NCBI RefSeq assembly: GCF_900196725.1
Contig: NZ_FZMP01000207.1
Location: forward strand, 1 to 64,000
Length of the DNA: 64,000 bases
Source of the DNA: Candidatus Methanoperedens nitratireducens
Lineage (GTDB): Archaea; Halobacteriota; Methanosarcinia; Methanosarcinales; Methanoperedenaceae
Reading direction: 5' to 3'
The notes under the pieces are model-generated. The model was not told where the DNA came from and made no database searches. It saw nothing but the letters and a program-made list of their open reading frames with translations. Every line of letters begins with the position of its first letter. Position 1 is the stretch's first letter. Shown piece by piece: positions 1,208 through 22,807 of the stretch. A program made the position numbers and the translations under genes.

Positions 1208-1564
1208 TCACATTTCCTCTATTTTCTTCACACTCATCAGCGGATAATCCTGCCCCTCATCATACACAAGCTCTGCCTGCGCTATCGTATTCTTATACAA
1301 TATCTGCAAGCTCACATTCAGCATCCGCCCTTCCAGTTCGCAGTACTTGAACTTAGGGTTCAGCTTCTTTTGCACCATCTCGCGGTCGATTGAAACACTG
1401 ATGCTCCTGACGTACGGCTGAAGAGCCACGCTTTGCTCGATTGTCCTTTCAAGGTCGTCTATCGTCTCAAGACTGATGGGCATGCCGACGAACTGGTGAT
1501 ACAGCGCACCAAGTTTTATTCCAGCTTCAAACACAGCCCTGTCACGTTCATTTACTTCTGCCAT
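1208..1564 (-). CDS. mptD: Archaeal dihydroneopterin aldolase MptD family
   Basis: A 118-residue protein matching the archaeal DHNA family (formerly DUF381). MptD cleaves 7,8-dihydroneopterin to 6-hydroxymethyl-dihydropterin in tetrahydromethanopterin synthesis. The family signature EAGIKLGALYHQFVG spans residues 13-27, followed by a segment around QPYV near 49-52. The size is typical for the family. It is the last gene of a minus-strand operon, overlaps the end of pssA by 17 bases, and has GGAGG just before its ATG. Its presence implies a methanopterin-using C1 metabolism. The link to the lipid genes upstream looks positional rather than functional. Confidence 0.85.
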   Translation of the reverse strand: MAEVNERDRAVFEAGIKLGALYHQFVGMPISLETIDDLERTIEQSVALQPYVRSISVSIDREMVQKKLNPKFKYCELEGRMLNVSLQILYKNTIAQAELVYDEGQDYPLMSVKKIEEM

Positions 1565-2228
1565 AAAACCTCCTTCCTGCCGGGATCAGAATGTACACAA
1601 ATGCCAGCACAAATAAGAACAGGGATACAAGCTTAACTATCCCTGCATAATTCAGATAAAAACTCGCGATATCTATTGCAAGAAGTATTCCCATGGGCGC
1701 CAGAACGGACAGCTTTTTTATTTTGGGATAACCTATCGTGCTGACCATGAGCAGGGATAAGAGGACAAGGAGAAGGGGGAATACGTATTCGAAATACCGC
1801 AGATAATCCCTCATAAGAAGGAACAGGGCGACGATAAAACCGCCTGCTGTTATGGGAATTCCCTCAAAACCGTCTTTTTTTCCTGCAACATTGAACCGGG
1901 CAAGGCGCAGTATGCCACAAACCAGGAAAAATCCTGAAAATACCCATGCCGCCGGGCTACCGAGAAAAACAAAAGCCGCAGTTGCAGGCGCAACTCCGAA
2001 CGCTATCACATCGGCAAGCGAATCAAGGTTAGCGCCAAGAACGCCCGTGCCTGTGTACCTTGCAAATGCACCGTCCGCGCCGTCCGCTATTACCGCAAGG
2101 AGGATTAGAACAAGAGCCTCATCGACCCTGCCCTGAACTATCATTATCACGGATGCGAAACCGAGGAGCGCGTTTATCAATGTGATTATATCCGCAGGCT
2201 TGATAAGTTTAATGATGTTCTCGCTCAT
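1548..2228 (-). CDS. pssA: CDP-alcohol phosphatidyltransferase, probable archaetidylserine synthase
   Basis: A 226-residue membrane enzyme of the CDP-alcohol phosphatidyltransferase family. It probably joins serine to CDP-archaeol to give archaetidylserine. The diagnostic motif is D52-G-x2-A-R57, G65, D69 and D73, lying after the first membrane segments. The rest is hydrophobic, with roughly six to seven helices. A GAGAGG stretch precedes the ATG. The neighbouring decarboxylase points to serine rather than inositol or glycerol as the alcohol. It lies in one operon with artA and asd, the enzyme set that in haloarchaea supports processing of PGF-CTERM proteins. Confidence 0.88.
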   Translation of the reverse strand: MSENIIKLIKPADIITLINALLGFASVIMIVQGRVDEALVLILLAVIADGADGAFARYTGTGVLGANLDSLADVIAFGVAPATAAFVFLGSPAAWVFSGFFLVCGILRLARFNVAGKKDGFEGIPITAGGFIVALFLLMRDYLRYFEYVFPLLLVLLSLLMVSTIGYPKIKKLSVLAPMGILLAIDIASFYLNYAGIVKLVSLFLFVLAFVYILIPAGRRFYGRSK

Positions 2229-2240
2229 TTCTACCTCTCT

Positions 2241-2873
2241 CTATGCCCTTATTTTCTCTTTTCTCATTGCGATTATGGTCTCGCCTGCTTTTACCTTGTC
2301 ACCCGGTTTAGCCGTAAACTCGTATCCCTGCGGTATTATCACATCCGCACGTGAGCCAAAGCGTATCATACCGATGCGTTCACCCCTTTTTACATAGCTT
2401 CCTTCACTGATGTAGGATACTATGCGCCTGGTGAGGATGCCAGCGATCTGCGTCAATTCAAGTATCCCATGCTCTGTATTTATTACTACATGGTTGCGCT
2501 CGTTTACCTGTGAATCCTTATTGAACGCAGGAATATATCCGCCAGGTTTATAATCGATATGTGTGATCGTGCCTGCAAGCGGAGCGCGGTTCACATGGAC
2601 ATTATGTATGTTCATAAAAATGCTGATAGTCCCGTTTTTTATGGAGATCACCCTGCCGTCCGCCGGGGAGACAGCATCATCCTCATCCCCCGGAGGCTTG
2701 CGCTCAGGGTCGCGGAAAAACACGAAGAAAAAGAGCGTCAGGACGGCTCCGATAATGAACAGGAATAGAAAAAAATAAGATACAAGCCCGCCGGAAAGCG
2801 TTGAGATATATGCCATCACAGCGGTGAACAGAAGTGCGCCGCCGATCCATGGGAGCGAGCCTTTAGCCACCAT
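2241..2873 (-). CDS. asd: Archaetidylserine decarboxylase (PSD-related)
   Basis: A 210-residue pyruvoyl-dependent decarboxylase that turns archaetidylserine into archaetidylethanolamine. Two hydrophobic helices occupy residues 10-52. A soluble domain follows, with NIHNVHVNRAP near 88-98 and the self-cleavage site G173-S174 inside RFGSRADV. Cleavage there would give the beta chain and the pyruvoyl-bearing alpha chain. The length fits the short archaeal and proteobacterial type. It overlaps the end of artA by 11 bases and is followed 12 bases later by pssA, so the three are almost certainly co-transcribed. Confidence 0.9.
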   Translation of the reverse strand: MVAKGSLPWIGGALLFTAVMAYISTLSGGLVSYFFLFLFIIGAVLTLFFFVFFRDPERKPPGDEDDAVSPADGRVISIKNGTISIFMNIHNVHVNRAPLAGTITHIDYKPGGYIPAFNKDSQVNERNHVVINTEHGILELTQIAGILTRRIVSYISEGSYVKRGERIGMIRFGSRADVIIPQGYEFTAKPGDKVKAGETIIAMRKEKIRA

Positions 2874-3735
2874 GCTTGAATATGCCTCCGAACAGCTTTA
2901 AAATACCATCTATCATGTCCAGGATCTCAGGAAGGATTTTCATAACAGCATAGGCTATCAGGAACAGTGCCATAAGAGAACCTACCTTTGCTATCACGGT
3001 ATGCGCAATATAGAAACTGGTTTCCGGGTCACCGAACCAGGTCATCCCGTACGCAGCGACTATGAAAACGTTCCTTATCAGGTTCAAGCCATAAATCACG
3101 GGGACCGATATAAGGAAGGCTGCCGCCTGCCGCTTGAACGGCGCATTGGCACTTGCGATTATACCGGTGAACAGGGCTATGCTTTCGATGGCTGTACATG
3201 CAAGGATGATCTCGACCTTGTAACCGTTCACAGCTATCAGGTTCCAGTCAACCCTTGTCATTGCAATCCCGAAAAGCGAGGCAACCTGGATTGTCTGGCC
3301 AGACACAGTAGATATGAGCCAGGTGTTCATCGCCTGGATTTCAGAAAATGCGAAATAAGATATCCCGCCTATGGCCGCGGCAGTGGTAGCCATGAAAAGC
3401 GAAGTCGTGGTACTTACGCCATTTATGTCCCTGAGTATCCTTTTATCCTGCCGCATCAGGATATAGCCAATAAAAATGCAGATAACAGCGGTGAGTATGG
3501 TCAGGGCTACATTGACATAGTCTTCCACTTCAGCGTAATGCTGCCACTGGAAAGCCCAGTGCACAGCGAAAAAAGCCCAGCCAGCGCCCGCAACGGTGAA
3601 TTTGAGTCTGTAATTCCTGGGGATGATCGAGGCTATTATAAGCAATCCAAGCGCCAACCAGAGGATATTTTCTATCATATAACTGACCCTATAAACCATA
3701 GGGGAGTATATAGTTTTTATCAGGGAATTTAGCAT
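2863..3735 (-). CDS. artA: Archaeosortase (exosortase/archaeosortase family)
   Basis: A 290-residue polytopic membrane protein with about eight helices. The archaeosortase catalytic residues are visible: C180 in LACTAIES, R221 in LNLIRNVF and H245 in YIAHTVIAK. ArtA removes C-terminal PGF-CTERM tripartite signals from surface proteins and couples the product to a lipid. It heads the operon artA-asd-pssA-mptD. In Haloferax volcanii ArtA works with PssA and PssD, so the co-location is meaningful. A likely substrate is the large secreted protein at 17530-20556, whose tail has a PGL-type variant of the signal. The subtype (A versus others) was inferred, not tested. Confidence 0.88.
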   Translation of the reverse strand: MLNSLIKTIYSPMVYRVSYMIENILWLALGLLIIASIIPRNYRLKFTVAGAGWAFFAVHWAFQWQHYAEVEDYVNVALTILTAVICIFIGYILMRQDKRILRDINGVSTTTSLFMATTAAAIGGISYFAFSEIQAMNTWLISTVSGQTIQVASLFGIAMTRVDWNLIAVNGYKVEIILACTAIESIALFTGIIASANAPFKRQAAAFLISVPVIYGLNLIRNVFIVAAYGMTWFGDPETSFYIAHTVIAKVGSLMALFLIAYAVMKILPEILDMIDGILKLFGGIFKHGG

Positions 3736-11944: not shown

Positions 11945-13126
11945 GTGTTTTTAGTAGGCGAGGCACTAATCGGTGAGGAACCGGAACTGGCTCATATTGA
12001 TTTGATCATCGGAGAAAAAACAGGTCCGGTCGGACAGGCATTTGCGAACGGATTTACACAGTTGTCAATGGGACATACGCCTCTCCTGTCTGTCGTCAGG
12101 CCCAACCTGCTTGCAAAACCTGCCACGCTCATAGTGCCGAAAGTAACTGTGAAGAATATGGCTCAGGCAGCACAGATATTCGGTCCTGCCCAGACCGCGG
12201 TGGCAAGAGCTGTTGCGGATTCAGTCCAGGAAGGGGTTATACCGGAAGACCAGGTCGAAGACCTCGCGGTCGTGGTCAGTGTATTTATCCATCCAGAGGC
12301 AAAGGATTACAATAAGATATACCGCTACAATTACGGCGCCACGAAACTTGCTGTAGAGAGAGCGATGCAGGGATTCCCGGATACCAAGACGCTCATGTAC
12401 GAGAAAGACCGCACCATGCACCCGATCATGGGATTCAAGGTAATCAGGTTATGGAACCCGCCATATCTGCAGGTCGCCATAGATATACCTGACGTTGATG
12501 CCGTGAAAAGCATAATAAAACAGATACCCCAGAGTGACCATCTTATTATCGAGGCAGGGACGCCGCTTATCAAGAGGTACGGCGTGAACATCGTCCAGGC
12601 TATAAGAGAGGTGCGCCCCAATGCATTTGTGGTGGCTGACTTAAAGACGCTGGATACGGGCAACCTCGAGGCGCGCATGGTTGCGGATGCCACAGCGGAT
12701 GCAGTTGTGATATCCGGACTTGCCCCGGCATCCACTATCGAGAAAGCGATAAAGGAAGCAAAGAAGACGGGCATCTATGCTGTTATAGACATGCTGAACG
12801 TTGAAAAACCGCTCTCCGTGTTAAAAGCGCTGGGCATAAAGCCGGATGTGGTTGAACTTCACAGGGCGATTGACACTGAGAACAAAGCAGAACATGCATG
12901 GGGAGACATACCTGCCATGAAGAAGCTATCGGAAAGAATGCTGGTGGCTGTCGCCGGAGGCATCCGCGTGGATACTGTCAGGGAAGCCCTCAAGTCAGGC
13001 GCTGATATTATCGTAGTCGGACGTGCTATCACCAAAGCCAAGGATGTCCGCTCAATGACAGAGCAGTTCCTGGAAGAACTCAGGCAGCCTGAGATAGACC
13101 AGTACAGGATAATGACCGACTTTTAG
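11945..13126 (+). CDS. fae-hps: Bifunctional formaldehyde-activating enzyme / 3-hexulose-6-phosphate synthase
   Basis: A 393-residue fusion. Residues 1-165 are Fae, which condenses formaldehyde with tetrahydromethanopterin; [13 protein letters not shown] ends with the catalytic H17. Residues from about 175 to 390 are Hps, a TIM barrel of the OMPDC family, with IDIPDVDAV near 184 and the VADLKTLD active-site segment near 236. In archaea the fusion serves ribulose-5-phosphate synthesis by the reverse RuMP route as well as formaldehyde handling. The GTG start has GAGGT upstream. A hairpin terminator candidate follows at 13141. The phi (Hxi) isomerase partner is not in the window. Confidence 0.96.
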
Positions 13127-13140
13127 TATTGAAGTGTATG

Positions 13141-13172
13141 AAGTATAGTGAAGTTATAGCTACACTATACTT
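13141..13172 (+). terminator. Hairpin terminator candidate after fae-hps
   Basis: AAGTATAGTG (13141-13150) and CACTATACTT (13163-13172) are perfect 10-base complements around a 12-base loop. An A/T-rich stretch with TTATTTTTCT follows. The position 14 bases after the fae-hps stop suits a terminator. Confidence 0.5.
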
Positions 13173-13195
13173 AAATTATTTTTCTGAAATAATTA

Positions 13196-13211
13196 CCCTG
13201 TATATACAGGG
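13196..13211 (+). promoter_or_regulatory. Perfect 16-bp palindrome, operator/TATA candidate
   Basis: CCCTGTATATACAGGG is fully self-complementary and contains a TATATA core. It lies about 100 bases upstream of the winged-helix gene at 13314. It could be a promoter covered by a dimeric repressor, possibly the product of that gene; the autoregulation is inference. Confidence 0.4.
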
Positions 13212-13313
13212 GTTCAAACTACATACATCATGTACAAATAGAAAGCTTCATATGTACAGAAGAACCCATTATACTCATTGGTAGTATGCTACGGTACCAA
13301 GGGGGAACACTCA

Positions 13314-13844
13314 ATGAAAGCTGATACGGGATGTACACTTGCCGATTTAAAAGGTAAGTATGGTGAGGAAGCTATTGTTGTAGGTATTGGGGGGCTGCTG
13401 ATAGGTTCCACGATAACCCACAGCGAGATAATTTCGACCATATCGACAATGATCATGAGAACTTTTGAAATGATGGTTATAACGTTCCAGAATAATCTTG
13501 TCGATTCGGGCACAGGTAAATTGATAATTGCAAGCACAAGCCCGGGCACTATTCTGATATACCAGAAAAACAAAGAGAGTGCAGGAATGAGAAAAGAAAG
13601 AAGCAGGTGGGAAATAATCGAAGACATGCTTAAAGTATTGATAGAAGAGAAGAATATGAAAAAGACAAGGATCATGCAGAGGGCATGTCTTAACTGGAGA
13701 GATTTACAGAAATATTTCGACTTCTTGCTGGAAGAAGGCTTTATAGCAGAGTGCACGAACCCCGGAAAGGGGAACTATGGGATAACAGAGAAAGGAAGGG
13801 AATTATTGAAGAGATTGAAGAATGTTGAGGAAATATTACGCTAA
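13314..13844 (+). CDS. Winged-helix protein with an unknown N-terminal domain
   Basis: A 176-residue protein. The C-terminal half (about 92-170) is an archaeal winged helix of the HTH_45 type, recognisable from WEIIEDMLKVL through LNWRDLQKYFDFLLEEGFI to YGITEKGRELL. The N-terminal 85 residues contain a glycine-rich hydrophobic stretch (IVVGIGGLLIGSTI) and no recognised domain. ATG at 13314 has GGGGG nine bases before it and was preferred over TTG at 13278. It is convergent with another small HTH gene, overlapping by four bases, and is probably a local transcription regulator. Confidence 0.7.
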   Translation: MKADTGCTLADLKGKYGEEAIVVGIGGLLIGSTITHSEIISTISTMIMRTFEMMVITFQNNLVDSGTGKLIIASTSPGTILIYQKNKESAGMRKERSRWEIIEDMLKVLIEEKNMKKTRIMQRACLNWRDLQKYFDFLLEEGFIAECTNPGKGNYGITEKGRELLKRLKNVEEILR

Positions 13845-14050
13845 TATTTTAGCTGCAAAAATTTCAGTCCCGTGCACGTAATCCGCAGCTCCTCATTTTT
13901 TTTATCGATAAGTGCCTGTTTTTGGAGGAAGCAGAGCACTTCATTTAACTTATGCGCTGGCATGGGAATAACCTTTTTTATTTCATCAAGGCTATGCCAG
14001 TTTATGTCTTGAAGTTGCTCCAGTATTCTATCGATAGAGTTCATGATCAT
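13841..14050 (-). CDS. Small winged-helix DNA-binding protein
   Basis: A 69-residue protein that looks like a single winged helix: SLDEIKKVIPMPAHKLNEVLCFLQKQ is the recognition part, followed by a short wing (NEELRITCTGLKFL). There is no ligand domain. The ATG at 14050 and ATG at 14044 are both possible. Divergently upstream lies an exceptional dyad (14151-14173) and then the surface-protein cluster, so control of that cluster is an attractive but untested idea. Confidence 0.65.
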   Translation of the reverse strand: MIMNSIDRILEQLQDINWHSLDEIKKVIPMPAHKLNEVLCFLQKQALIDKKNEELRITCTGLKFLQLKY

Positions 14051-14150
14051 AATTAAATTCCGCGTTTATAAACTACGTTTTTTACTATTATATATAATTT
14101 ATAGTTTATTTGCTATGTACGGCGTATATGTATTGTCCATATGTAACCTT

Positions 14151-14173
14151 ACTATGTAGCGTCACTACATAGT
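14151..14173. promoter_or_regulatory. Dyad operator candidate between divergent genes
   Basis: ACTATGTAG (14151-14159) and CTACATAGT (14165-14173) are perfect 9-base inverted arms around CGTCA. It lies about 100 bases before the small winged-helix gene and 160 before the lipoprotein gene. This is a layout typical of a regulator binding a shared divergent control region. Confidence 0.45.
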
Positions 14174-14334
14174 CCCGCAATATTCTCAGACTTCTTAATG
14201 TTTTTTAAGGTAGTAATAATATTGATTGGTTATACCACAATTTAAAATCCCCCGGAAATCCCATCGGGAACCCGGAGGCCAGAGAGTTCTGGAAAAGCAA
14301 TGTGGGGAATAAGGGCTGAAATGGAGGAAAAAAA

Positions 14335-14886
14335 TTGGACAAAAGATCGATTACAGCAGTGATATTCTCGGAATCCAGACTGTGGAGGATTCTGGGAATA
14401 TTGATGCTCATATCTATCTTGGGAGGATGCATCGGTAAGGAGAATAAACCGAATGCGGAACTCACTGCCCAGGAAGATAACGGTGGTGGACTGACGTTGG
14501 TGCAAAGTGCCCCGGACCAGAATGAATCCGTTAGCATCAGTGAATCAAAGAACATCAGCAAACTGAAACCAAACTCAGTACGTCTGATTCTCCGGCCTAA
14601 GGAGCTTAACAGGACAGGCAGGCTTCCTGTAACGCTACAGATCACAAATCCGAGGCTGAACGAAACCGTTACAACCGTGTTTAAGCCCGGTTCGGGGAAG
14701 GAATGGTACAACCAGACCAATATAACTTACATTTCCAACAGCAACTGGACTCAGAATTTCTCTATAAAACCGAATAAGAATACCAGTTATGTCCACATGT
14801 TCGTCCAGATTTCAGATAACGGTACTGTGGTAAAAAAAGCTGCATGGAATCTTTCCTGGGGGGTGCCTGTCGAGAAGGCGAAATAA
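14335..14886 (+). CDS. Secreted lipoprotein, first gene of the surface cluster
   Basis: A 183-residue lipoprotein. A basic N-terminus and hydrophobic core (about 15-30) lead to the lipobox ILGGC with C32 as the modified cysteine. The mature part is rich in N, S, T and Q with many N-x-S/T sites. A likely beta-sandwich (about 78-180; RLPVTLQITNPRLNETVTTV) follows. The TTG start is supported by GGAGGA eight bases upstream. It is followed 148 bases later by three secreted repeat proteins. Its family is not recognised. An accessory or membrane-anchor role for the cluster is inference. Confidence 0.65.
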   Translation: MDKRSITAVIFSESRLWRILGILMLISILGGCIGKENKPNAELTAQEDNGGGLTLVQSAPDQNESVSISESKNISKLKPNSVRLILRPKELNRTGRLPVTLQITNPRLNETVTTVFKPGSGKEWYNQTNITYISNSNWTQNFSIKPNKNTSYVHMFVQISDNGTVVKKAAWNLSWGVPVEKAK

Positions 14887-14910
14887 CTGGGTTCAAGTCC
14901 CAGAGGCACA
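14887..14910 (+). other. tRNA T-arm-like fragment
   Basis: CTGGG-TTCAAGT-CCCAG forms a five-pair stem with a seven-base loop obeying the tRNA TTCRANY rule, and AGGCACA follows where the acceptor strand would be. There is no matching 5' half, since the upstream text is the lipoprotein gene. It may be an integration scar or chance. Confidence 0.3.
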
Positions 14911-14934
14911 TTCGCTCGGTCAAATCGGGTCGGC

Positions 14935-14988
14935 AGTCCCTGCGGCAGCAGAAAGTAGTCCCTGCGGCAGCAGAAAGTGGTCCCTGCC
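14935..14988 (+). repeat. 22-bp tandem repeat, about 2.4 copies
   Basis: The unit starting AGTCCCTGCGGCAGCAGAAA begins at 14935 and again at 14957. A third, partial copy starts at 14979. It is G/C-rich compared with the flanks and sits just before the Shine-Dalgarno of the first repeat-protein gene, so it lies in that gene's leader. Confidence 0.8.
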
Positions 14989-15034
14989 ACCGCAACCGAG
15001 TTGAAACATATACAAATATAAAAGGAGGAAAAAT

Positions 15035-15616
15035 ATGAAGAAAGTTTTGATAGCATTACTGTTAATGTCAACAGTAATCGGAATGACAATGCCAGCAATG
15101 GCAAATCCGCATATTAAGAAGGTAGTTAATAACGATCAGGACGCAACGAACTGGGCAACCAGTACGATAGCTCAAAGCCAGGAAAATTCAGGTGACCTGG
15201 TCAACAACAACGCACAGATTGCCCTTGGCGGCGATGCCAAAGCAAAGTCTGAAGCAAATGCTAATGCAAATGCCCAGGACCAGAGCAGCCACGATGTCGG
15301 AAGCGGCGATGATTCAGAGGATAATATCGGCGGTCTGGATAATTCCGGTGCGACCAATGTACTCTCTGGAAATGCGGGCTCTCTCGCTGCTGCAGATGGT
15401 GGAGATGCAGACAATGGTGATAACTTCCAGGAAAATTCACTCGTACAGATCGCCACTGCAGAAATAACAACCACACAGGACATCGTTCAGATAATCGATG
15501 AAGTCGAGGAACTCGTACTGACTATCGAAGATTCTGCAATCGTTGAAGGCAATGAAGTAGAAGATGAGTCAGCAATCGTAGCATCCGGCGACGAAGAGGC
15601 AGAAATAAATCTGTAG
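15035..15616 (+). CDS. Secreted acidic Q/N/A-rich protein (surface cluster protein 1)
   Basis: A 193-residue protein with a clear signal peptide (about 1-23, ending AMANP). The mature chain is rich in Asn, Gln, Ala, Ser, Asp and Gly, with short alternating polar-hydrophobic strings (AQSQENSGDLVNNNAQIAL; NSLVQIATAEITTTQDIVQ). It has a very acidic tail. No cysteines or enzyme motifs are visible. GGAGG precedes the ATG. A terminator-like hairpin follows before the next gene, which should make this the most abundant product of the cluster. The composition suits a beta-solenoid or amyloid-like fibre subunit, but that is inference and no known family is claimed. Confidence 0.7.
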   Translation: MKKVLIALLLMSTVIGMTMPAMANPHIKKVVNNDQDATNWATSTIAQSQENSGDLVNNNAQIALGGDAKAKSEANANANAQDQSSHDVGSGDDSEDNIGGLDNSGATNVLSGNAGSLAAADGGDADNGDNFQENSLVQIATAEITTTQDIVQIIDEVEELVLTIEDSAIVEGNEVEDESAIVASGDEEAEINL

Positions 15617-15662
15617 TCGCAGAATAGCGATGCAGTTGCATAATCAAAGACGGCTCTAAGGT

Positions 15663-15700
15663 ATAGGGGAGGGGAAACTTCCTCTATCCTTTTTGTTTTT
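15663..15700 (+). terminator. Partial terminator or attenuator inside the surface cluster
   Basis: ATAGGGGAGG (15663-15672) pairs with CTTCCTCTAT (15678-15687), counting two G-U pairs, over a GGAAA loop. CCTTTTTGTTTTT follows. Its place between protein 1 and protein 2 of the cluster would lower expression of the downstream genes. Confidence 0.55.
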
Positions 15701-15733
15701 ATGTAGAGTCGTCAAAAATTGGAGGTGAGTAGC

Positions 15734-16147
15734 ATGAAAAAGATACTGGTTGTGCTGGGAGTGATCTTAATACTTACTATTCCCGCACTTGCAGATGTCG
15801 GTCAAAAGGCAAGACTGAACGGCGAGAATGCGGTGATAGTTAAGGTAGATCAGATTGCCTGGAATTATGGTTCCGGAGATATAAACCAGGATATGAGTGT
15901 GCAAGTAACAGGAAATTACCAGATGATAGACCAGGACAGTATGACGCTTTTAGGTGGATCACTTATTTCTGATTCCGATTATTCAGCCTTTGTAAACAAT
16001 ACAATGAAAGGGCGTAATGTTATCAGGATTGATCTGGACCAGTACGGGAATAACTCAGGAAGCGGAAGCATTGGCCAGAGTATTAATGTTCTTGTAGATA
16101 ACAACGTACAGACATTGAGTCAGGATATTATAGTGATTATCGATTGA
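15734..16147 (+). CDS. Secreted repeat protein with two 42-residue curlin-like units (cluster protein 2)
   Basis: A 137-residue secreted protein with a signal peptide ending ALAD (about 1-20). Two repeats, residues 32-73 and 95-136, align without gaps at an offset of 63. They share DQ (39-40/102-103), GSG (46-48/109-111), I50/I113, Q52/Q115, N61/N124, Q63/Q126 and QD (67-68/130-131). The alternating pattern with regularly spaced Q, N and G resembles curlin-type cross-beta repeats, although the exact curlin consensus is not met. ATG at 15734 has GGAGGTG at the right distance and beats TTG at 15719. It lies 12 bases before the next gene. Confidence 0.7.
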   Translation: MKKILVVLGVILILTIPALADVGQKARLNGENAVIVKVDQIAWNYGSGDINQDMSVQVTGNYQMIDQDSMTLLGGSLISDSDYSAFVNNTMKGRNVIRIDLDQYGNNSGSGSIGQSINVLVDNNVQTLSQDIIVIID

Positions 16148-16159
16148 GGAGTGGGCACT

Positions 16160-17110
16160 ATGAAATGGATTTGTCTGTTGGTCGCGGGCCTGATGATATC
16201 GGTCAGCATAGCTGTTGCGGATGAAGAACTGAGCTCTGCCCAGCTATCTCAGATTGCTGTAGACAGGATTGGTGATTCAAGCCAGGAGGCAGATATTTCT
16301 GGCTTTGATGAAGCAGAATCCAGCCAGATAGGTTACTCCTCTGATGGAATTGTCACCCAGACCATTTCTTATGAAAACATAGGGAACGGAAGCATCCTGC
16401 AATGGGGAGAATCCGGAGATATGAAATATAAAGAAAGGTCATTTTATTTTGACCAGATAGGAGATGAAATCAACACAACGAACTGGATAAATGGTGATGT
16501 GAATCAGACGATCTATATCAGGAACTCCTCCAACCTGTATTTGAAGCAGGTCGTAGGAGGGTTGAAGAATATCCTCTTCCCTGACCAGCAGACTGCCCAG
16601 GTAGAAAGGGAGAACGGAGCATGGTGGTTCTGCGGTAAGGCGGTGAACAATAGATCAGGATTACCTCTCTGTGCCGATAAATTTGCAAAAAAGATATACG
16701 ATGGGAAAGCAACTGAAAGTGATTTTTATAAGCTTCAAGCTCTTCAGGAGAACTACGATGTTTTTCCATCTGAGAACCTTACGCTCCATGTGATCCTTAC
16801 GAAGTGGAACATGACCAGGACCGATGATAACAACCTCAGCATAAAGTTCCGCGCTTATAATTTTGGGAAAAAGACCTACAATGCCACGATTGTAATGGAC
16901 CTTGTCTCGAAGGTCGATATAGTCAGTCTTGAGGGCAGTAGTGTCAATGCAGACAATACACAGAACTGGCAGATCAAGATGCCTTCGAAGCGGAACATTG
17001 AACTCGGCACTTACACAGTTCAATCGATGAAGGAAATAGATAAAGTAGTGAAAGTGCCCCTGGAGGATATAAAGGTGAACAGCATCGAGATGAAGGTTAT
17101 GAGCGAATGA
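16160..17110 (+). CDS. Secreted protein with Q/N/G-rich repeats plus a beta domain (cluster protein 3)
   Basis: A 316-residue secreted protein with a signal peptide of about 21 residues. Residues 22-135 carry repeat-like text related to cluster protein 2 (IGNGSILQWGESGD; INGDVNQTIYIRNSS; NLYLKQVV), notably the shared G-D-(I/V)-N-Q core. A middle part has two cysteines (WWFCGKA and LPLCADK). The C-terminal part (about 195-316) looks like an Ig-like or CARDB domain (NLSIKFRAYNFGKKTYNATI). ATG at 16160 with GAGGAG upstream was chosen over GTG at 16151. It could act as a nucleator or cap for the fibre-like proteins; this is inference. Confidence 0.68.
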   Translation: MKWICLLVAGLMISVSIAVADEELSSAQLSQIAVDRIGDSSQEADISGFDEAESSQIGYSSDGIVTQTISYENIGNGSILQWGESGDMKYKERSFYFDQIGDEINTTNWINGDVNQTIYIRNSSNLYLKQVVGGLKNILFPDQQTAQVERENGAWWFCGKAVNNRSGLPLCADKFAKKIYDGKATESDFYKLQALQENYDVFPSENLTLHVILTKWNMTRTDDNNLSIKFRAYNFGKKTYNATIVMDLVSKVDIVSLEGSSVNADNTQNWQIKMPSKRNIELGTYTVQSMKEIDKVVKVPLEDIKVNSIEMKVMSE

Positions 17111-17150
17111 ATAACGAATAAAAAAACGTGGGCGTTAGTAAAAAAACAAA

Positions 17151-17200
17151 GGCGAGCAATCAGGTAACAGCTAATAAATATCAAAAACCTGATGCTCGCC
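17151..17200 (+). terminator. Strong hairpin closing the first half of the surface cluster
   Basis: GGCGAGCAATCAGGT (17151-17165) pairs with ACCTGATGCTCGCC (17187-17200) with a single bulged A and a 21-base loop. It starts 40 bases after the stop of cluster protein 3. No long T-run follows, so it could equally stabilise the 3' end of the messenger. The rest of the gap 17201-17429 shows no supported gene. Confidence 0.5.
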
Positions 17201-17429
17201 ACTCATCACAGTTACCATCCATAAAATATCAGGCGCAACTGATATGGATGTGGAAATTTATTCCAAAAAGGAATCTCAAAGAGAAATCTATATATGCAGG
17301 CAGTTCATGTATAAACCAACTGGGATTTGGAAAATTATTGGTGCCAGGTATGAATGCTGTCCATAACTTTGGAAAGTAGGAATCAAGGCATTGGCCCATA
17401 AAAAATATAATAGCTAAGGGGGTTTGCCG

Positions 17430-17576
17430 ATGAGCAATAAAAAGGTCATTATTACACTTTTGGTATTCTTACCATCTCTATTCTCGTTGAGGTTAAGAGC
17501 GCATTACATTGATGCGAGAATAACGATGTGTGATTCAATATCGTCTGCAAAAGTTGCCGGGGGGTATCACCATTAA
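17430..17576 (+). CDS. Possible small hydrophobic peptide before the wall-protein gene
   Basis: A 48-residue open frame (MSNKKVIITLLVFLPSL at the start) with GGGGG eight bases before the ATG. A basic-hydrophobic N-terminus resembles a signal peptide. It overlaps the start of the next gene by 47 bases in another frame. It might be a leader peptide coupling translation to that gene or a truncated secreted protein. Evidence is limited to the ribosome-binding site and the signal-like start. Confidence 0.3.
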   Translation: MSNKKVIITLLVFLPSLFSLRLRAHYIDARITMCDSISSAKVAGGYHH

Positions 17577-20556
17577 TAAAATTATTAAAGGATTTGTTTT
17601 TTTACTGGTAATTATGAGTGTTGCTTTCATTGTTATGGCAGCATCCCCGGTTGTTGTTATTGTACAACCAGCGAGTGATGGTGAAACCATTAGCGGTAAT
17701 TTCCAATTTGTTGCCCATATTACCAGTCCAGACGAGAATCTAAACAGGGTAGATTTCATTATTACTAACACAACCGGAACTGTCAGATCTGATTTTACGA
17801 CCCCCAATCGAAATACTCCCGATTCAGGGGAGGATTTTGCATATTCTTTAAATACTGCTGAACTTGCTGATGGAAGTTATACGCTAACAGTGAACGCTAT
17901 AAATGAGAATATAACCTCTTCCAATACCACAACTGTGACCCGCAATTTTGTTATTAGTAACGTTCCGCCGCCCCTATCAATCATATCACTTTCCCCTGTT
18001 GATGACCCAACCACACAGGTCGGTACGCCTCAGAAATTTGAAATAAATCTCAATAGAAGCGCATCCACTACCTGGTATATTGATGGTTTTGTAGTCCAGA
18101 CCAATCAAAATGCGGCATCGGCAAGCTATACAAATTCTACGGCAGGCGTTGGAACACACACTGTTACTGCAAATGCTACTGACGGCTATTATCTTATCTC
18201 AAAAACCTGGAACTGGGCTGTTGTCCCAATACCTACATATGATGTAAGCGGCTATGTGTTCGATAATTCAGGTTCGGGACTTGGAGGTGTTCAGGTTCAG
18301 AGCGGCAGCAACCAAGGTATTACGTCAGCATCCGGCTATTATTTGATAACTGGTTTTCTTAACGGCACTTATAACTTCAGTTATTCTAAGACCGGATTTG
18401 ATACGGGTTATTTAGAAGTTACAATCAATGGCGCAAATTATATTAATGCGAATAAAACAATCTATGATACTACTTCGCCTGCTTCGGTATCTAATCCAAA
18501 TACAGTAGCAGGCAACTTTTTTGTAAACAATAGCTGGGTCAATCCCACAGATACGGATTTCAGTTACGTGTTGTTTATGTACAGTAACGGCACCGAATTG
18601 CAAAAAGTTTATTCCCCGGCTAATTACCTTAATCTTCAGTGGCAACCGCATTATACTCAGAATATCAGTGCACAGACGGTGGATACGAAAGGAATTATCA
18701 ACCAGACACTTGTATGGTTCAACGCTACCATACCGAATAACCCCCCCGTTCAGGCTCCCATAGGAAATAAGACCATATACAAAGGTCAGCTACTGACATT
18801 CAGCTTAAGTGCAACCGATGCTGATTCAGACCCTATACGCTACGGGACGAACGCAAGCAAAGGCAGTTTTGATAGCAACACGGGAACTTACACATGGACT
18901 CCCGGAGATGGGGACGCAGGGGTATATGTTTGGGGATTTAACAGCAGCGACAGCTACGGCGGAATAGACAGTGAGATAATAACGGTCGAAGTAAAAAACC
19001 CTCTTGAGCTTGACCTGAGGCTTCTTGAACCGATAGTAGTAACGGATAAGAACGGAACGTCGGTTGGGATATGGCAGGATGCAAATATCGGACATATAGG
19101 GAAACTTATCGGTTACAACAGTACATTTAAGAACGCAGCAGATGTCAGGCTGGTTCTCAATGTTACCGAGATCGGTAATAATGCGACCAATGATACATAT
19201 AAAGTAACGCTTGGACAAAACGAGTCTAAATCATGTCCTGATGGAACCAGTATATGCAGGGTGAAATTTGAAATAGAACCGGAAGGAGTTAAAGAAGGAG
19301 TTTTCGATTTTTCCCTGAAAATAGATGTCAACGGGTATATAAATCAAACCCCTGTATTAAAATACACCAACCTTACTACTATACATCTCCCGATAATCCC
19401 TGTTTTCAAAATAAAGCAAACTGATGCGGCTATTGCCATCGTTAGCGAGGGAAAGACAACCACAATTACATATGTCCTTGAAGCTAACAGTACGGTCAAT
19501 ATGACGAATATCTCTATTTTTGATCCGTTATATCCGCAAAAATATTTCAATATCTCAAGATATGAAGTCAGTGGCAATACCTCGCGTTGTTACAATGAAA
19601 ATCAAAAACAGATCCCATGCAGCCTGAGCTATGAATATCCGGCAACCATCGGCGCTTTATCCAGGTTCAAATCAGAAGAATCAGAAATGGGATTCCCATA
19701 TATTATAAATATGGCGACCTTTAGTGCGAAAAATGAATCTGGTTATCCAATCAATGATACCGACTATGTGGAGATATGCGTAAATAAGTGCTGGAAAGGG
19801 AATATTCCAGAGAGTATCTACGTATCAAGTGAAGGTGGCGGCGGAGGTGGCGGCGGAGGTGGCGGCGGAGGCGCGCCTGCCAGCAGTGAGGATTTCAATA
19901 ACATTGAGGCGCGAGAGGTCAGGGAAATGGCCGTTTACGCGAAATCAGCCTCAACTTACGTATTTAAATCTGTAGATCCGGTCATGGTTGTTGGGTTTGA
20001 AAGCAGCTCAAGCGAGAACTCAGTGCCTGTTGTTGTTGAAGTGCTCAGGAACAGATCAAAGCTTATCGGTGAAGATGCTCCGGGCAAACTATACAAGTAC
20101 TTCAATGTCTTTGTAGGCACAAGCGGCTTCAGCCGGAAAGTAAGTAACGGGGTTGTGGCATACCGGGTCAACAACAGCTGGCTGGCAGAAAATAACATCG
20201 ATCCGGCGGATATAAGCCTTTATAAATGGCGGGGAACCTGGGTCAAACTGGATACCGAGATTGCAGAAAACAAATCAAATTACACTTATTACGCCAGCCT
20301 TACAGGCAACTTCAGCAGTTTTGCAATCGTTGCAACCAAAGAACAGATAGGCAGCAAGATGTCTGTACTTGATATGCCCGTGTCTCCAGACCAGCAAAAT
20401 ACAACCCAGGCAATAGCCAATCTCTCAGCCGACGAACCGAAGCGTAAAATCCCGGGTTTATCCGCAGCAGTCATACTGGTTTTTGGGATAGCAGGTATAA
20501 TATCCTATCTTAAGAGGAATTATAAGAGATTAAATAAAAAGGACGTGGGAAAATGA
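17530..20556 (+). CDS. Large S-layer/wall-type protein with PGF-pre-PGF domain and sorting tail
   Basis: A 1008-residue secreted protein. An N-terminal signal (about 14-38) precedes Ig-like domains. A carboxypeptidase-regulatory-like fold follows (about 237-315; YDVSGYVFDNSGSGLGGVQV), then a cadherin/He_PIG-like domain (about 398-490) and further beta domains. An all-glycine linker (about 768-781) comes next. A PGF-pre-PGF domain runs from about 785 to 938 (ending SFAIVATKE). The C-terminus has IPGLSAAVILVFGIAGIISY and a basic tail, a PGL variant of PGF-CTERM. It is thus a probable archaeosortase substrate that becomes lipid-anchored. The start is uncertain (GTG 17530 or a TTG further in). 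It overlaps the next gene by four bases. Confidence 0.82.
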   Translation: MIQYRLQKLPGGITINKIIKGFVFLLVIMSVAFIVMAASPVVVIVQPASDGETISGNFQFVAHITSPDENLNRVDFIITNTTGTVRSDFTTPNRNTPDSGEDFAYSLNTAELADGSYTLTVNAINENITSSNTTTVTRNFVISNVPPPLSIISLSPVDDPTTQVGTPQKFEINLNRSASTTWYIDGFVVQTNQNAASASYTNSTAGVGTHTVTANATDGYYLISKTWNWAVVPIPTYDVSGYVFDNSGSGLGGVQVQSGSNQGITSASGYYLITGFLNGTYNFSYSKTGFDTGYLEVTINGANYINANKTIYDTTSPASVSNPNTVAGNFFVNNSWVNPTDTDFSYVLFMYSNGTELQKVYSPANYLNLQWQPHYTQNISAQTVDTKGIINQTLVWFNATIPNNPPVQAPIGNKTIYKGQLLTFSLSATDADSDPIRYGTNASKGSFDSNTGTYTWTPGDGDAGVYVWGFNSSDSYGGIDSEIITVEVKNPLELDLRLLEPIVVTDKNGTSVGIWQDANIGHIGKLIGYNSTFKNAADVRLVLNVTEIGNNATNDTYKVTLGQNESKSCPDGTSICRVKFEIEPEGVKEGVFDFSLKIDVNGYINQTPVLKYTNLTTIHLPIIPVFKIKQTDAAIAIVSEGKTTTITYVLEANSTVNMTNISIFDPLYPQKYFNISRYEVSGNTSRCYNENQKQIPCSLSYEYPATIGALSRFKSEESEMGFPYIINMATFSAKNESGYPINDTDYVEICVNKCWKGNIPESIYVSSEGGGGGGGGGGGGGAPASSEDFNNIEAREVREMAVYAKSASTYVFKSVDPVMVVGFESSSSENSVPVVVEVLRNRSKLIGEDAPGKLYKYFNVFVGTSGFSRKVSNGVVAYRVNNSWLAENNIDPADISLYKWRGTWVKLDTEIAENKSNYTYYASLTGNFSSFAIVATKEQIGSKMSVLDMPVSPDQQNTTQAIANLSADEPKRKIPGLSAAVILVFGIAGIISYLKRNYKRLNKKDVGK

Positions 20557-21203
20557 GAGCTATCGCGGTAGTAATTGTGATGTTACTGATCGTCCAGAGT
20601 GTGGAGGCAAAAGGAGATTCCGGCTGGGTAGGCCCTGAAAGTTTCCTTTATCCTTTAAAAGTGTGGATGGAGAAACTCAGCATCAATCTAATTTCCAGCC
20701 AGGAAGAGAAAGACCTGAAAATGCTTGACCTTGCCGAAGAACGGCTGGCTGAAGCTGAGGAGATGGAAAATAATTCAAAAGCGTTTGAAAAAGCCATGGA
20801 TGAATATACAGAGCAACTGGAAGAACTCCATGGGGCTATAGAAAAGAACGCCGATAATGGAACAAAAAAGATTAACGTAGGTATAAAAGAAAGGATTGAG
20901 AGCCATAAAAACCGAACAAAAAATTTAAAAAGTTCACTGAGAGCCAGCGTAGTCCAGCAAAGCATCATCGAGGCAAGCAGTTCCGCAGGAGGGAGCAGGA
21001 TTAATGTCAGCTCAATCAACGGGAACGTCTCAGTGCAAACAGAAGGCGGCAATGCAACTGTCACCCGGGACGGCAGCAATGTGACAGTAGTTTCCGTCAC
21101 AAATAACTCCAGACAGGTGGTTGTTATCAACTCCTCGCGGAACGGGTCATCAAGTTCAGTCTCGGTGCGGTCAAGTTCTAAGGCTGTTGTCAGCACCGGC
21201 TAG
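20553..21203 (+). CDS. Secreted DUF5667-type protein
   Basis: A 216-residue exported protein with a signal peptide (about 1-19). It carries the DUF5667 pattern: GPESFLYPLKVWMEKLSINL followed by a charged helix with LAEERLAEAEEME and a further helical hairpin to about 125. The C-terminal 80 residues are Ser/Asn/Val-rich repeats (NVSVQTEGGNATVTRDGSNV) suggesting a beta-solenoid tail. Its ATG overlaps the TGA of the wall-protein gene (ATGA), so the two are translationally coupled and likely act together at the cell surface. The function of the family is unknown. Confidence 0.75.
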   Translation: MRAIAVVIVMLLIVQSVEAKGDSGWVGPESFLYPLKVWMEKLSINLISSQEEKDLKMLDLAEERLAEAEEMENNSKAFEKAMDEYTEQLEELHGAIEKNADNGTKKINVGIKERIESHKNRTKNLKSSLRASVVQQSIIEASSSAGGSRINVSSINGNVSVQTEGGNATVTRDGSNVTVVSVTNNSRQVVVINSSRNGSSSSVSVRSSSKAVVSTG

Positions 21204-21212
21204 CGGGCATTC

Positions 21213-21911
21213 TTAAGAATTAAAATACTCTTTGAGTATTGTATTAAATATTCTCCATCCGTCCCTGAAAGAGTTAAGATTGGAATCCCCGTTCTTTCTG
21301 CAGGCTTCGAAGGATGGTACTTCTTTCACCTTGAGTCCCGCTTTTTTCATGCGTATTGACTGTTCAGTCTCGATCTCGAACCCTTTTGACTGGCAGTATA
21401 TCTTTTTAATTGCCTCTTTCTTAAATGCCCTATAACCATAACACAGGTCTGTGTAGTTTGAACCGTATAGCATGTTCACCATAGTGACGAATAACCTGTT
21501 ACCCAATCGTCTGAATGGCGTGATATCTGCCGAACCCCCGCCAGGCATCATGCGTGAGCCATTTGAAACATCATATCCGTCCAGCACAGGTTCTAAAAGT
21601 CCCGGGATTTCTTTGGGATCGTGGCTTCCGTCCGCATCCATTATTATCAATATATCCCCGGTCGCATTCTCAAACCCGGTTCTCATTGCCGCGCCTTTTC
21701 CCCGGGGTTTTTCTACAATGATTTTCGCATCTTTCCTGTATTTTAATATTTCATCCCTTGTTCTGTCTGTGGAATTACCGTCCACAACTACTACCTCATC
21801 TATAAATTCAGGGATGTACGGGAAAACCTCTTTTATATTCGATTCTTCGTTCAATGTCGGTATCACCAAGCTTACGTTTTTCACTTCACCGTATTTGTTT
21901 GTAAGACTCAT
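21213..21911 (-). CDS. Family 2 glycosyltransferase, dolichyl-phosphate sugar synthase-like
   Basis: A 232-residue GT-A fold glycosyltransferase. The N-terminal SLVIPTLNEESNI (about 14-26) and the metal-binding DAD at 92-94 in MDADGSHDP are standard for GT2. The sequence resembles DPM/DPG synthases, which load a sugar on a polyprenyl phosphate for glycan assembly. There are no C-terminal membrane helices. The ATG at 21911 with GGGGG upstream was preferred over ATGs at 21944 and 22001. It is convergent with the surface cluster and could supply sugars for its many N-glycosylation sites, although that link is only positional. Confidence 0.85.
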   Translation of the reverse strand: MSLTNKYGEVKNVSLVIPTLNEESNIKEVFPYIPEFIDEVVVVDGNSTDRTRDEILKYRKDAKIIVEKPRGKGAAMRTGFENATGDILIIMDADGSHDPKEIPGLLEPVLDGYDVSNGSRMMPGGGSADITPFRRLGNRLFVTMVNMLYGSNYTDLCYGYRAFKKEAIKKIYCQSKGFEIETEQSIRMKKAGLKVKEVPSFEACRKNGDSNLNSFRDGWRIFNTILKEYFNS

Positions 21912-22033
21912 ACTACCCCCACTCGATATTTCGTTAGTTCTCATTTCTTTAAATAACGTTAAGAACGCAAGGCATATACTGGACGCACATGCCGAAAGCA
22001 CATGCCGGAAACTTACGAATTCAGGTAAACGGT

Positions 22034-22807
22034 TTATTCCTCTGGTTCTTCTGGCTCCCCGATTATTCTATCATATAGGTCACCTGGACAGAAAGCGAAA
22101 CCTGCGACTCGCCCGGCTGGATGGGTGTGCCGGTTTTTCCACCGCTGCCGGTGCAAAACGGGAGGAAGCGCGCCTTCGCTTATCGACGCCGTTCTCACGC
22201 CGGTTATCCTGACCTTCAGGCTTTGAGCAAGCAGGCCTGCTTTAGCAGATGAGTCATTTACAGCCTTTACAAGCAGCTCGTCGCTGATCTGTCTTTGCTT
22301 TTCTTCGGATACTGTAAAAGATATCCCGCTGACCTGGTTCGCGCCGGCGGCGACTGCTTTTTCTACGATGTCGCTCAGGTTGCCGGGTATCTTCGTGGTT
22401 ACCTGTACATTATTGGAAGCCGAATATCCGGTGATGTTCGGCGCTTCACCTTCCGCTGGAGATTTGTACAATGGCTGGATGGACAGGAAGGATGTCCGGA
22501 TTTCCCTGTCGCCAAGCCCCAGGCTTTTAAGGGCATTTATCACAGATGTCATAGCATTGTTATTTTTCTGCGAGGCTTCCCCGGCAGTAGGGGCCTGCGT
22601 CAGGACACCGATGTTTATGGATGCAGTATCAGGCACCACAAATTCCGATGCAGAGCCGGAAACAGAAAGCTCCCTCTGTTCAGAAGCTCCCAGCTTTGCA
22701 TTCGCACCTGCGGCGCTTACGTATAAACCCGCAATTATTATCACAATGCCAATTGAGAGAATAACCAGAAGTATGTACAGTTTATTACCTGTTGTTTCCT
22801 GATTCAT
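22034..22807 (-). CDS. SIMPL-domain (DUF541) exported protein, frameshifted near the end
   Basis: An N-terminal membrane anchor (about 10-32) is followed by a SIMPL domain: SVSGSASEFVVPDTASINIG, IQPLYK, GYSASNNVQVTTK and ARSLKVRI-type text. After ISEGALPPV the frame loses similarity. The proper family ending (GTPIQPGESQVSLSVQVTYM) continues in another frame and stops at 22063-22065. One extra base around 22155-22165, next to AAAA and GGG runs, would explain this. Without it the protein would be about 247 residues. SIMPL proteins are periplasmic or surface oligomers of poorly known role. It is a true mutation or a consensus error. Confidence 0.75.
   Translation of the reverse strand: MNQETTGNKLYILLVILSIGIVIIIAGLYVSAAGANAKLGASEQRELSVSGSASEFVVPDTASINIGVLTQAPTAGEASQKNNNAMTSVINALKSLGLGDREIRTSFLSIQPLYKSPAEGEAPNITGYSASNNVQVTTKIPGNLSDIVEKAVAAGANQVSGISFTVSEEKQRQISDELLVKAVNDSSAKAGLLAQSLKVRITGVRTASISEGALPPVLHRQRWKNRHTHPAGRVAGFAFCPGDLYDRIIGEPEEPEE

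Follow-up and report, generated by a model that had tools for sequence, protein, structure and literature searches.

In Haloferax a tRNA-like element, the t-element, is located 5′ of 5S rRNA and is a substrate of tRNase Z and RNase P, which cut it (PMC4326828, PMC3296008), and such elements release RNA that is placed behind or between them (PMC4326828, PMC4946936, PMC3296008). In the cip-cel operon of the Clostridium cellulosome, stem-loops 3′ of the cistrons for abundant subunits set the stoichiometry (PMC4423207). With regard to what extracellular assemblies are made of, curli (CsgA/CsgB, Curlin PF07012) involve small secreted proteins with regularly spaced Gln, Asn and Gly, encoded by a multi-gene operon, and the curlin repeat is defined by x6-Q-x10-Q, N-x5-Q-x-G and a degenerate pattern (PMC10192328). 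The archaeal sheath proteins SH and MspA of Methanothrix, Methanospirillum and ANME-1 form extracellular beta-rich assemblies; the groups named in the SH survey are Methanotrichales, Methanomicrobia, Thermofilales and ANME-1, and the text of that survey makes no mention of Methanoperedens (PMC11576556, PMC10593813). A further known group is that of the PGF-pre-PGF/archaeosortase A proteins (TIGR04213, TIGR04125), and artA, pssD and pssA act together in Haloferax and are clustered in Methanosarcina (PMC7157517).

A locus with features of all of these, and with differences from each, is present in Candidatus Methanoperedens nitratireducens. The window, meaning the whole stretch of DNA that was analyzed, is 64,000 nucleotides of contig NZ_FZMP01000207.1. 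Six successive plus-strand ORFs in its ORF list, here named lip, A, B, C, D and E (14335-21203), encode exported proteins, each of which opens with a signal-peptide-like stretch, just as the initial annotation of this DNA had described; the two RNA elements at 14860-14912 and 15651-15706 were missing from it. We consider it slightly on the probable side that the six genes constitute a genus-restricted operon for a cell-surface assembly, in which the message for A is cut out and protected so as to set stoichiometry. The features in the window are:

1548-3735, minus strand: archaeosortase gene (TIGR04125, 1.8e-74) with genes for a PssD-like (phosphatidylserine-decarboxylase-like) and a PssA-like (CDP-alcohol transferase) protein
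13311-13844, plus strand: winged-helix protein (HTH_45, Sso10a family), upstream of the cassette, a candidate regulator that is syntenic at some loci only
14335-14886, plus strand: lip, first cassette gene, predicted lipoprotein with lipobox ILGGC and a TTG start
14860-14912, plus strand: tRNA-like element (t-element), overlapping the lip stop codon at 14884-14886
15035-15616, plus strand: A, secreted low-complexity protein, candidate major subunit
15651-15706, plus strand: hairpin directly 3′ of A, stem at 15663-15687, terminator-like or mRNA-stabilizing
15734-16147, plus strand: B, secreted protein of 137 aa with an exact 63-residue tandem duplication
16151-17110, plus strand: C, secreted protein of 319 aa with N-terminal Q repeats and a C-terminal beta-sandwich-like domain
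17530-20556, plus strand: D, PGF-pre-PGF surface protein of 1008 aa
20553-21203, plus strand: E, secreted DUF5667 protein (3.5e-16) with a Ser/Asn-rich, beta-prone C-terminus

The order lip-A-B-C is shared by 13 loci, which belong to eight of the 31 Methanoperedens genomes that made up the genus set (M. nitroreducens ANME-2d, LC 1, MnB_21 and LFW-280 assemblies included), and five genomes, M. nitroreducens ANME-2d among them, have two copies of the cassette. D is next at 12 of the 13 loci, being missing beside the copy G005_C37, and E is present at seven; at some loci D is clipped by contig ends. The flanks are of several types, among them a Fae-Hps/winged-helix side, an FAD-oxidoreductase-like/glycosyltransferase-like side (judged by eye) and others, so that, with flanks differing between loci, the cassette moves as a unit. 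Values of dN/dS for the pair formed by the window and G005 are 0.31 for lip, 0.59 for A, 0.41 for B, 0.21 for C and 0.20 for E, which places all five under purifying selection, least so A, the fastest evolving of the cassette genes. Since the order is kept at 13 loci in several neighborhoods, with dN/dS of 0.2-0.6, the six-gene set is more than a chance arrangement. The proposal in the initial annotation had depended on the set being found in relatives, where it does recur, and the suspicion expressed there that it has no described counterpart stands, as nothing like this conserved and co-inherited group of exported proteins was found.

When 60 relatives were searched, A, B and C were confined to the genus apart from marginal matches; B has no match among 238 genomes from elsewhere in the class, C has none elsewhere in the phylum (394-genome sample), and the viral contigs that were scanned contain no relative of B or C. 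Pfam and NCBIfam recognize only D and E, with no significant match for lip, A, B or C; when the members of the three families of A, B and C were run singly against Pfam, none had a significant match, and searches of PDB sequences with A, B and C yielded nothing usable. Two ancient cassette subtypes are not proposed, as the C tree, in which the window and G005_C81 are grouped with G000_C11 and G005_C37, partly pairs copies within lineages, making later duplication or gene conversion likely. Stop-codon read-through from B into C (TGA, the same frame at some loci) was rejected because C carries a signal peptide of its own and the relation between the two frames varies from locus to locus. An 83-aa ORF at 17128-17379 is not taken for a gene, since the nearest relative does not preserve its frame. 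A link to multiheme cytochromes was sought by counting CxxCH in the cassette neighborhoods, and the motifs are few and near some copies.

The t-element at the lip/A junction has the sequence GTGCCT..CTGGG-TTCAAGT-CCCAG-AGGCAC. Its acceptor-like stem of 6 bp (14863-14868/14904-14909) is stacked directly on the T-arm (14887-14903), whose stem is of 5 bp and whose loop is TTCAAGT, giving the combination of stacked acceptor stem and 7-nt TTCRA-type loop that is looked for in a t-element, and a short hairpin replaces the D and anticodon arms. It is present at all 13 lip/A junctions, with the TTCRA loop retained in 12 of the copies. Among the 13, 92% of the pair cells are standard vs 29-53% in slid controls, and there are 12 double-changed cells vs 3.9 in shuffled alignments (0/500); with 20 copies, in an alignment fitted to the model, nine pairs have double changes vs 3.2 (0/500). 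The shuffle controls leave the kinship between sequences in place, and the RNA alignments (A4 and A6) were cut around elements that had already been seen, so it is the previously unseen copies, together with the matches to tRNAs, that provide unbiased evidence. None of the 13 was called a tRNA by ARAGORN, and Rfam has no family at the lip/A or A/B junctions.

Model R2, run over the 31 genomes, identified the 13 cassette t-elements and seven previously unseen ones. For six of the seven, a gene for a secreted repeat protein of low complexity lies 48-94 nt downstream, and the products of these genes have A-like signal peptides and SNVNEREDSNV-, RERERL-type or PGQMM repeats. The seventh, and an eighth identified by a wider model, R3, that was built from 20 copies, overlap the 3′ end of a ThiF-like ORF in the genomes G017 and G008:

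L153 4819-4872: t-element overlapping a ThiF-like ORF
L175 3447-3501: t-element overlapping a ThiF-like ORF

These two are 36 nt before the gene for a 166-aa, cytosolic-looking, non-secreted protein, which means that the device is not confined to secreted proteins; their neighborhood may be reminiscent of PRTRC-type plasmid genes. The best matches of R3 outside the genus are real tRNAs, mostly tRNA-Gly, and that the model picks these out gives independent support for the tRNA-like nature of the element. A tRNA-like sequence upstream of a solo paralogue of A on the minus strand (CCGTTG..ATGGGTTCGAATCCTGT-CAACGG, L081 8020-8260) was seen by eye and gets no score from the covariance models. Right after the t-element of the window there is a second hairpin, of the CCCGG/CCGGG type (14913-15010), which is compact in most relatives; the window and the relatives closest to it have a form enlarged by copies of a GTCCCTGCGGC-type repeat.

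At the other end of A, the hairpin has a stem of ten pairs followed by the T-run CCTTTTTGTTTTT, and is the strongest terminator-like site within 13000-22500. Each of the 13 A/B junctions has a hairpin that matches it, in most cases with a T-rich tail; 91.5% of the cells are paired, and there are seven double-changed cells vs 2.9 (2/500). Over the 31 genomes, model R1 of this hairpin has matches in the eight cassette genomes only. Two copies among these had not been seen before: one, in G000:C35 (1.2e-5), follows a solo A paralogue at a distance of 117 nt, and the other, in G024:C77, follows a further secreted repeat gene by 36 nt. Weaker hairpins of the A/B type are present in a sister operon of M. 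nitroreducens.

Like its Haloferax namesake, the Methanoperedens t-element is immediately 5′ of an RNA that may be released; unlike it, it lies in a predicted mRNA, over a stop codon, and belongs to a conserved family found before secreted repeat genes. The hairpin resembles the cip-cel stem-loops in being conserved and 3′ of the cistron for a putatively abundant subunit in an operon for a surface complex, and differs from them in being archaeal and paired with a tRNA-like element. It is very improbable, in our view, that the t-element is a functionless relic of a tRNA gene, such as an integration scar. It may descend from a tRNA gene, given that real tRNAs, mostly tRNA-Gly, are the next-best matches of R3, but compensatory changes, a constant position relative to A at 13 loci in different neighborhoods, and recurrence 5′ of unrelated secreted repeat genes are not what a scar would be expected to display. 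The hairpin may simply be a terminator, as the ten-pair stem with its T-run and the A-B gap of about 118 bp in the window would fit. That B-C-D-E are transcribed separately, from a promoter of their own, with no stoichiometry device within the operon, nevertheless strikes us as unlikely, keeping in mind that the gap is just about 55-66 bp at two loci and that the gene order is always kept; even with termination there, A could still be the more highly transcribed unit.

Turning to the proteins, lip adjoins A at all 13 cassettes. Its lipobox cysteine comes after a hydrophobic signal, as in archaeal lipoproteins, the GC of the lipobox is kept in all 12 aligned sequences, in keeping with its original designation as a lipoprotein, and a small beta-rich domain is present at the C-terminus. 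In the A family the N- and C-terminal Q/N motifs are conserved and the middle is of variable length, with the proteins of relatives ranging from about 180 to 785 aa and the middle in M. nitroreducens consisting of acidic T/S/G repeats; the 11-residue Q spacing is absent from A. In two genomes A is fused by its N-terminal region to a PGF-pre-PGF domain:

L082 10408-11493: A N-terminal region, Pro/Thr-rich linker, PGF-pre-PGF domain, C-terminal TM helix
L083 9044-10126: the same arrangement

By these fusions A is tied to anchors of the D type independently of synteny. A, B and C had all three been described initially as low-complexity proteins. The description suits A, which is rich in Ala, Asn, Asp, Gly, Ser and Glu, and does not suit B (rich in Asn, Gly, Asp and Gln), with its 63-residue duplication, or C, which is only mildly biased and has two domains, with an ordinary C-terminal half. 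The GD(I/V)NQ core that B and C were said to share is a likeness at the level of the motif and nothing beyond (hhalign probability 13%). A single repeat family of shared ancestry is not claimed for A, B and C, as the profiles of B and C match weakly and most of the match between A and B comes from the signal peptide.

The duplication in B gives an autocorrelation of z = 9.2 at offset 63 (0/2000 shuffles as high), and the matched positions Q40/103, N44/107, G48/111, Q52/115, N61/124, Q63/126 and Q67/130 are invariant. In C the Q spacing is 11/14 (period 25), and seven conserved Q columns (34, 45, 59, 70, 84, 119 and 133) are on a two-phase lattice that arises by chance in 2.7% of trials over periods 18-30 (P = 0.027); a free-period autocorrelation test on C was not significant, and so the lattice is suggestive only. 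AlphaFold2 models of B and C, each made from a 13-sequence alignment, are all-beta, with a pLDDT of 41 for B (an unusable model) and 63 for C (moderate); predicted strands recur at offset 63 in the pLDDT 41 model of B and at a period of about 25 in that of C. A fold search of the PDB with the two models gave no significant match, the sole match of B at E<=10 being FapC, a functional amyloid (E = 2.9, not significant). The portrayal of B and C as beta-rich with Q/N/G-spaced repeats has held up. As the Q/N/G register is invariant in B and C orthologues at 50-60% identity, their sequences suggest stacked beta structure rather than disorder. Cross-beta assembly of cassette proteins is plausible but unproven.

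D matches PGF-pre-PGF TIGR04213 at 1.7e-33 and has Big_7, CarboxypepD_reg and He_PIG matches at low significance; it is an Ig-rich surface protein from a large paralogous family. It had been annotated as a 1008-residue wall protein with a PGF sorting tail by which it would be lipid-linked. Its length and domain are as given, but the C-terminus in the window, IPGLSAAVILVFGIAGIISYLKRN, has IPGL where PGF is expected, and in the orthologues, which have a C-terminal transmembrane helix and no PGF, LKLPAAF, NLQLSV, VSFNLIL and similar sequences replace it. The PGF-CTERM model has no match for D, the tail not being that of an archaeosortase A substrate, and covalent lipid linkage through it is unsupported; going by its sequence, D is more simply regarded as a TM-anchored protein. 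With the PGF-pre-PGF/archaeosortase A proteins it shares the PGF-pre-PGF domain and the presence of an artA-pssD-pssA set, about 10 kb away on the same contig, which is given as context and may or may not act on D (the genome has three archaeosortase copies, one of them inside the window); it departs from them in that the PGF tripartite tail is not kept in its orthologues. The assignment of E to DUF5667 and its four-base overlap with D were correctly recognized from the outset, and the overlap is kept at five of six other loci. Giant proteins of 1500-3600 aa with tandem D repeat regions are encoded at G000:C22, G000:C100, G007:C191 and G014:C7, the repeat unit corresponding to D residues about 140-490 at 50-66% identity. 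Between C and D (17140-17220) there is an inverted repeat, GGCGAGCA..TGCTCGCC, a possible second transcription boundary.

In the operon reading, the cassette proteins would exit through Sec, with lip held in the membrane through the predicted lipid and D through the TM helix at its C-terminus. B and C may serve as beta-repeat (solenoid-like) adaptors or nucleators, and A, with its conserved Q/N-rich ends and freely variable low-complexity middle, as the major matrix or fiber subunit. Cutting of the t-element by RNase P and tRNase Z would free the A message from lip; this cleavage is unproven, as the element is without D and anticodon arms. The 3′ hairpin would shield the A message or partly end transcription, and A output would then be in large excess over that of B-C-D-E. 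We infer cleavage, stoichiometry, the role of A as major subunit and fiber formation alike. For A as the bulk subunit, the best clue we have is the kind of gene that is bracketed, either A or one for a different secreted repeat protein of low complexity.

Rather unlikely, to our minds, is that the operon specifies a surface adhesin or coat without polymerization, A, B and C being anchored, mostly disordered decorations, a glue or hydrophilic coat, with ordinary adhesin beta repeats. An acidic, low-complexity A of very variable length, an Ig-rich D from a large paralogous surface family, and the absence of an amyloid fold match for the B and C models are all compatible with this, but it leaves the invariant Q/N/G register of B and C at their level of identity, and the conservation of Q motifs at the ends of A, without an obvious reason. 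Still less probable is a strict curli-like functional amyloid, with C and B as curlin-repeat beta-solenoids that nucleate fibers of A. Q-x10-Q is enriched in the C (29 vs 7.3) and B (27 vs 8.7) families, and the degenerate curlin pattern in the C family (13 vs 2.3), but these counts are over related family members, and so not independent, and the enrichment in the window sequences alone is not significant. The strands of the C model at a period of about 25 and the FapC match of B also favor it, whereas N-x5-Q-x-G is absent throughout the A, B and C families and no member of their alignments matches Curlin Pfam, up to E = 1. The curli analogy of the initial annotation accordingly fails the family test. 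What the cassette has in common with curli is small secreted proteins with regularly spaced Q/N/G in a multi-gene operon, and a period of 25 in C vs about 23 in curlin; it is unlike curli in its archaeal envelope, in having D as an Ig-rich membrane-anchored partner, and in that no CsgC/E/F/G-like gene was noticed nearby, where neighbors were labeled against cassette genes only; secretion of the CsgG type, across an outer membrane, would not be expected in an archaeon that has none. With the SH and MspA sheath proteins the cassette would share the formation of archaeal extracellular beta-rich assemblies, but in the searches made its proteins have no sequence relation to them.

Returning to the reading of the locus as an operon with a cut-out and protected A message, a broader form of it, which we put forward tentatively and regard as possible, is that a tRNA-like element, a gene for a secreted low-complexity repeat protein and a hairpin form a reusable cassette in which tRNA-processing enzymes cut and stabilize messages for matrix or fiber proteins, the founding example being a new archaeal fiber system unrelated to curli, sheath or pili. 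If so, tRNA-processing enzymes would provide mRNA-level control of archaeal surface-protein output, and t-elements would be extended from 5S rRNA to operons. The components with which Methanoperedens forms aggregates have been poorly known so far, and the cassette is a defined gene set for a possible matrix of this environmentally important methane oxidizer. A sister operon, at L128 3274-7423 (G024) and L150 (G014:C2:28000-42000), has genes for three to four secreted proteins of low complexity, with repeats of the SNVNEREDSNV-, RERERL-, HKKFDD- or KPGHK-type, and has two tRNA-like elements and terminal hairpins.
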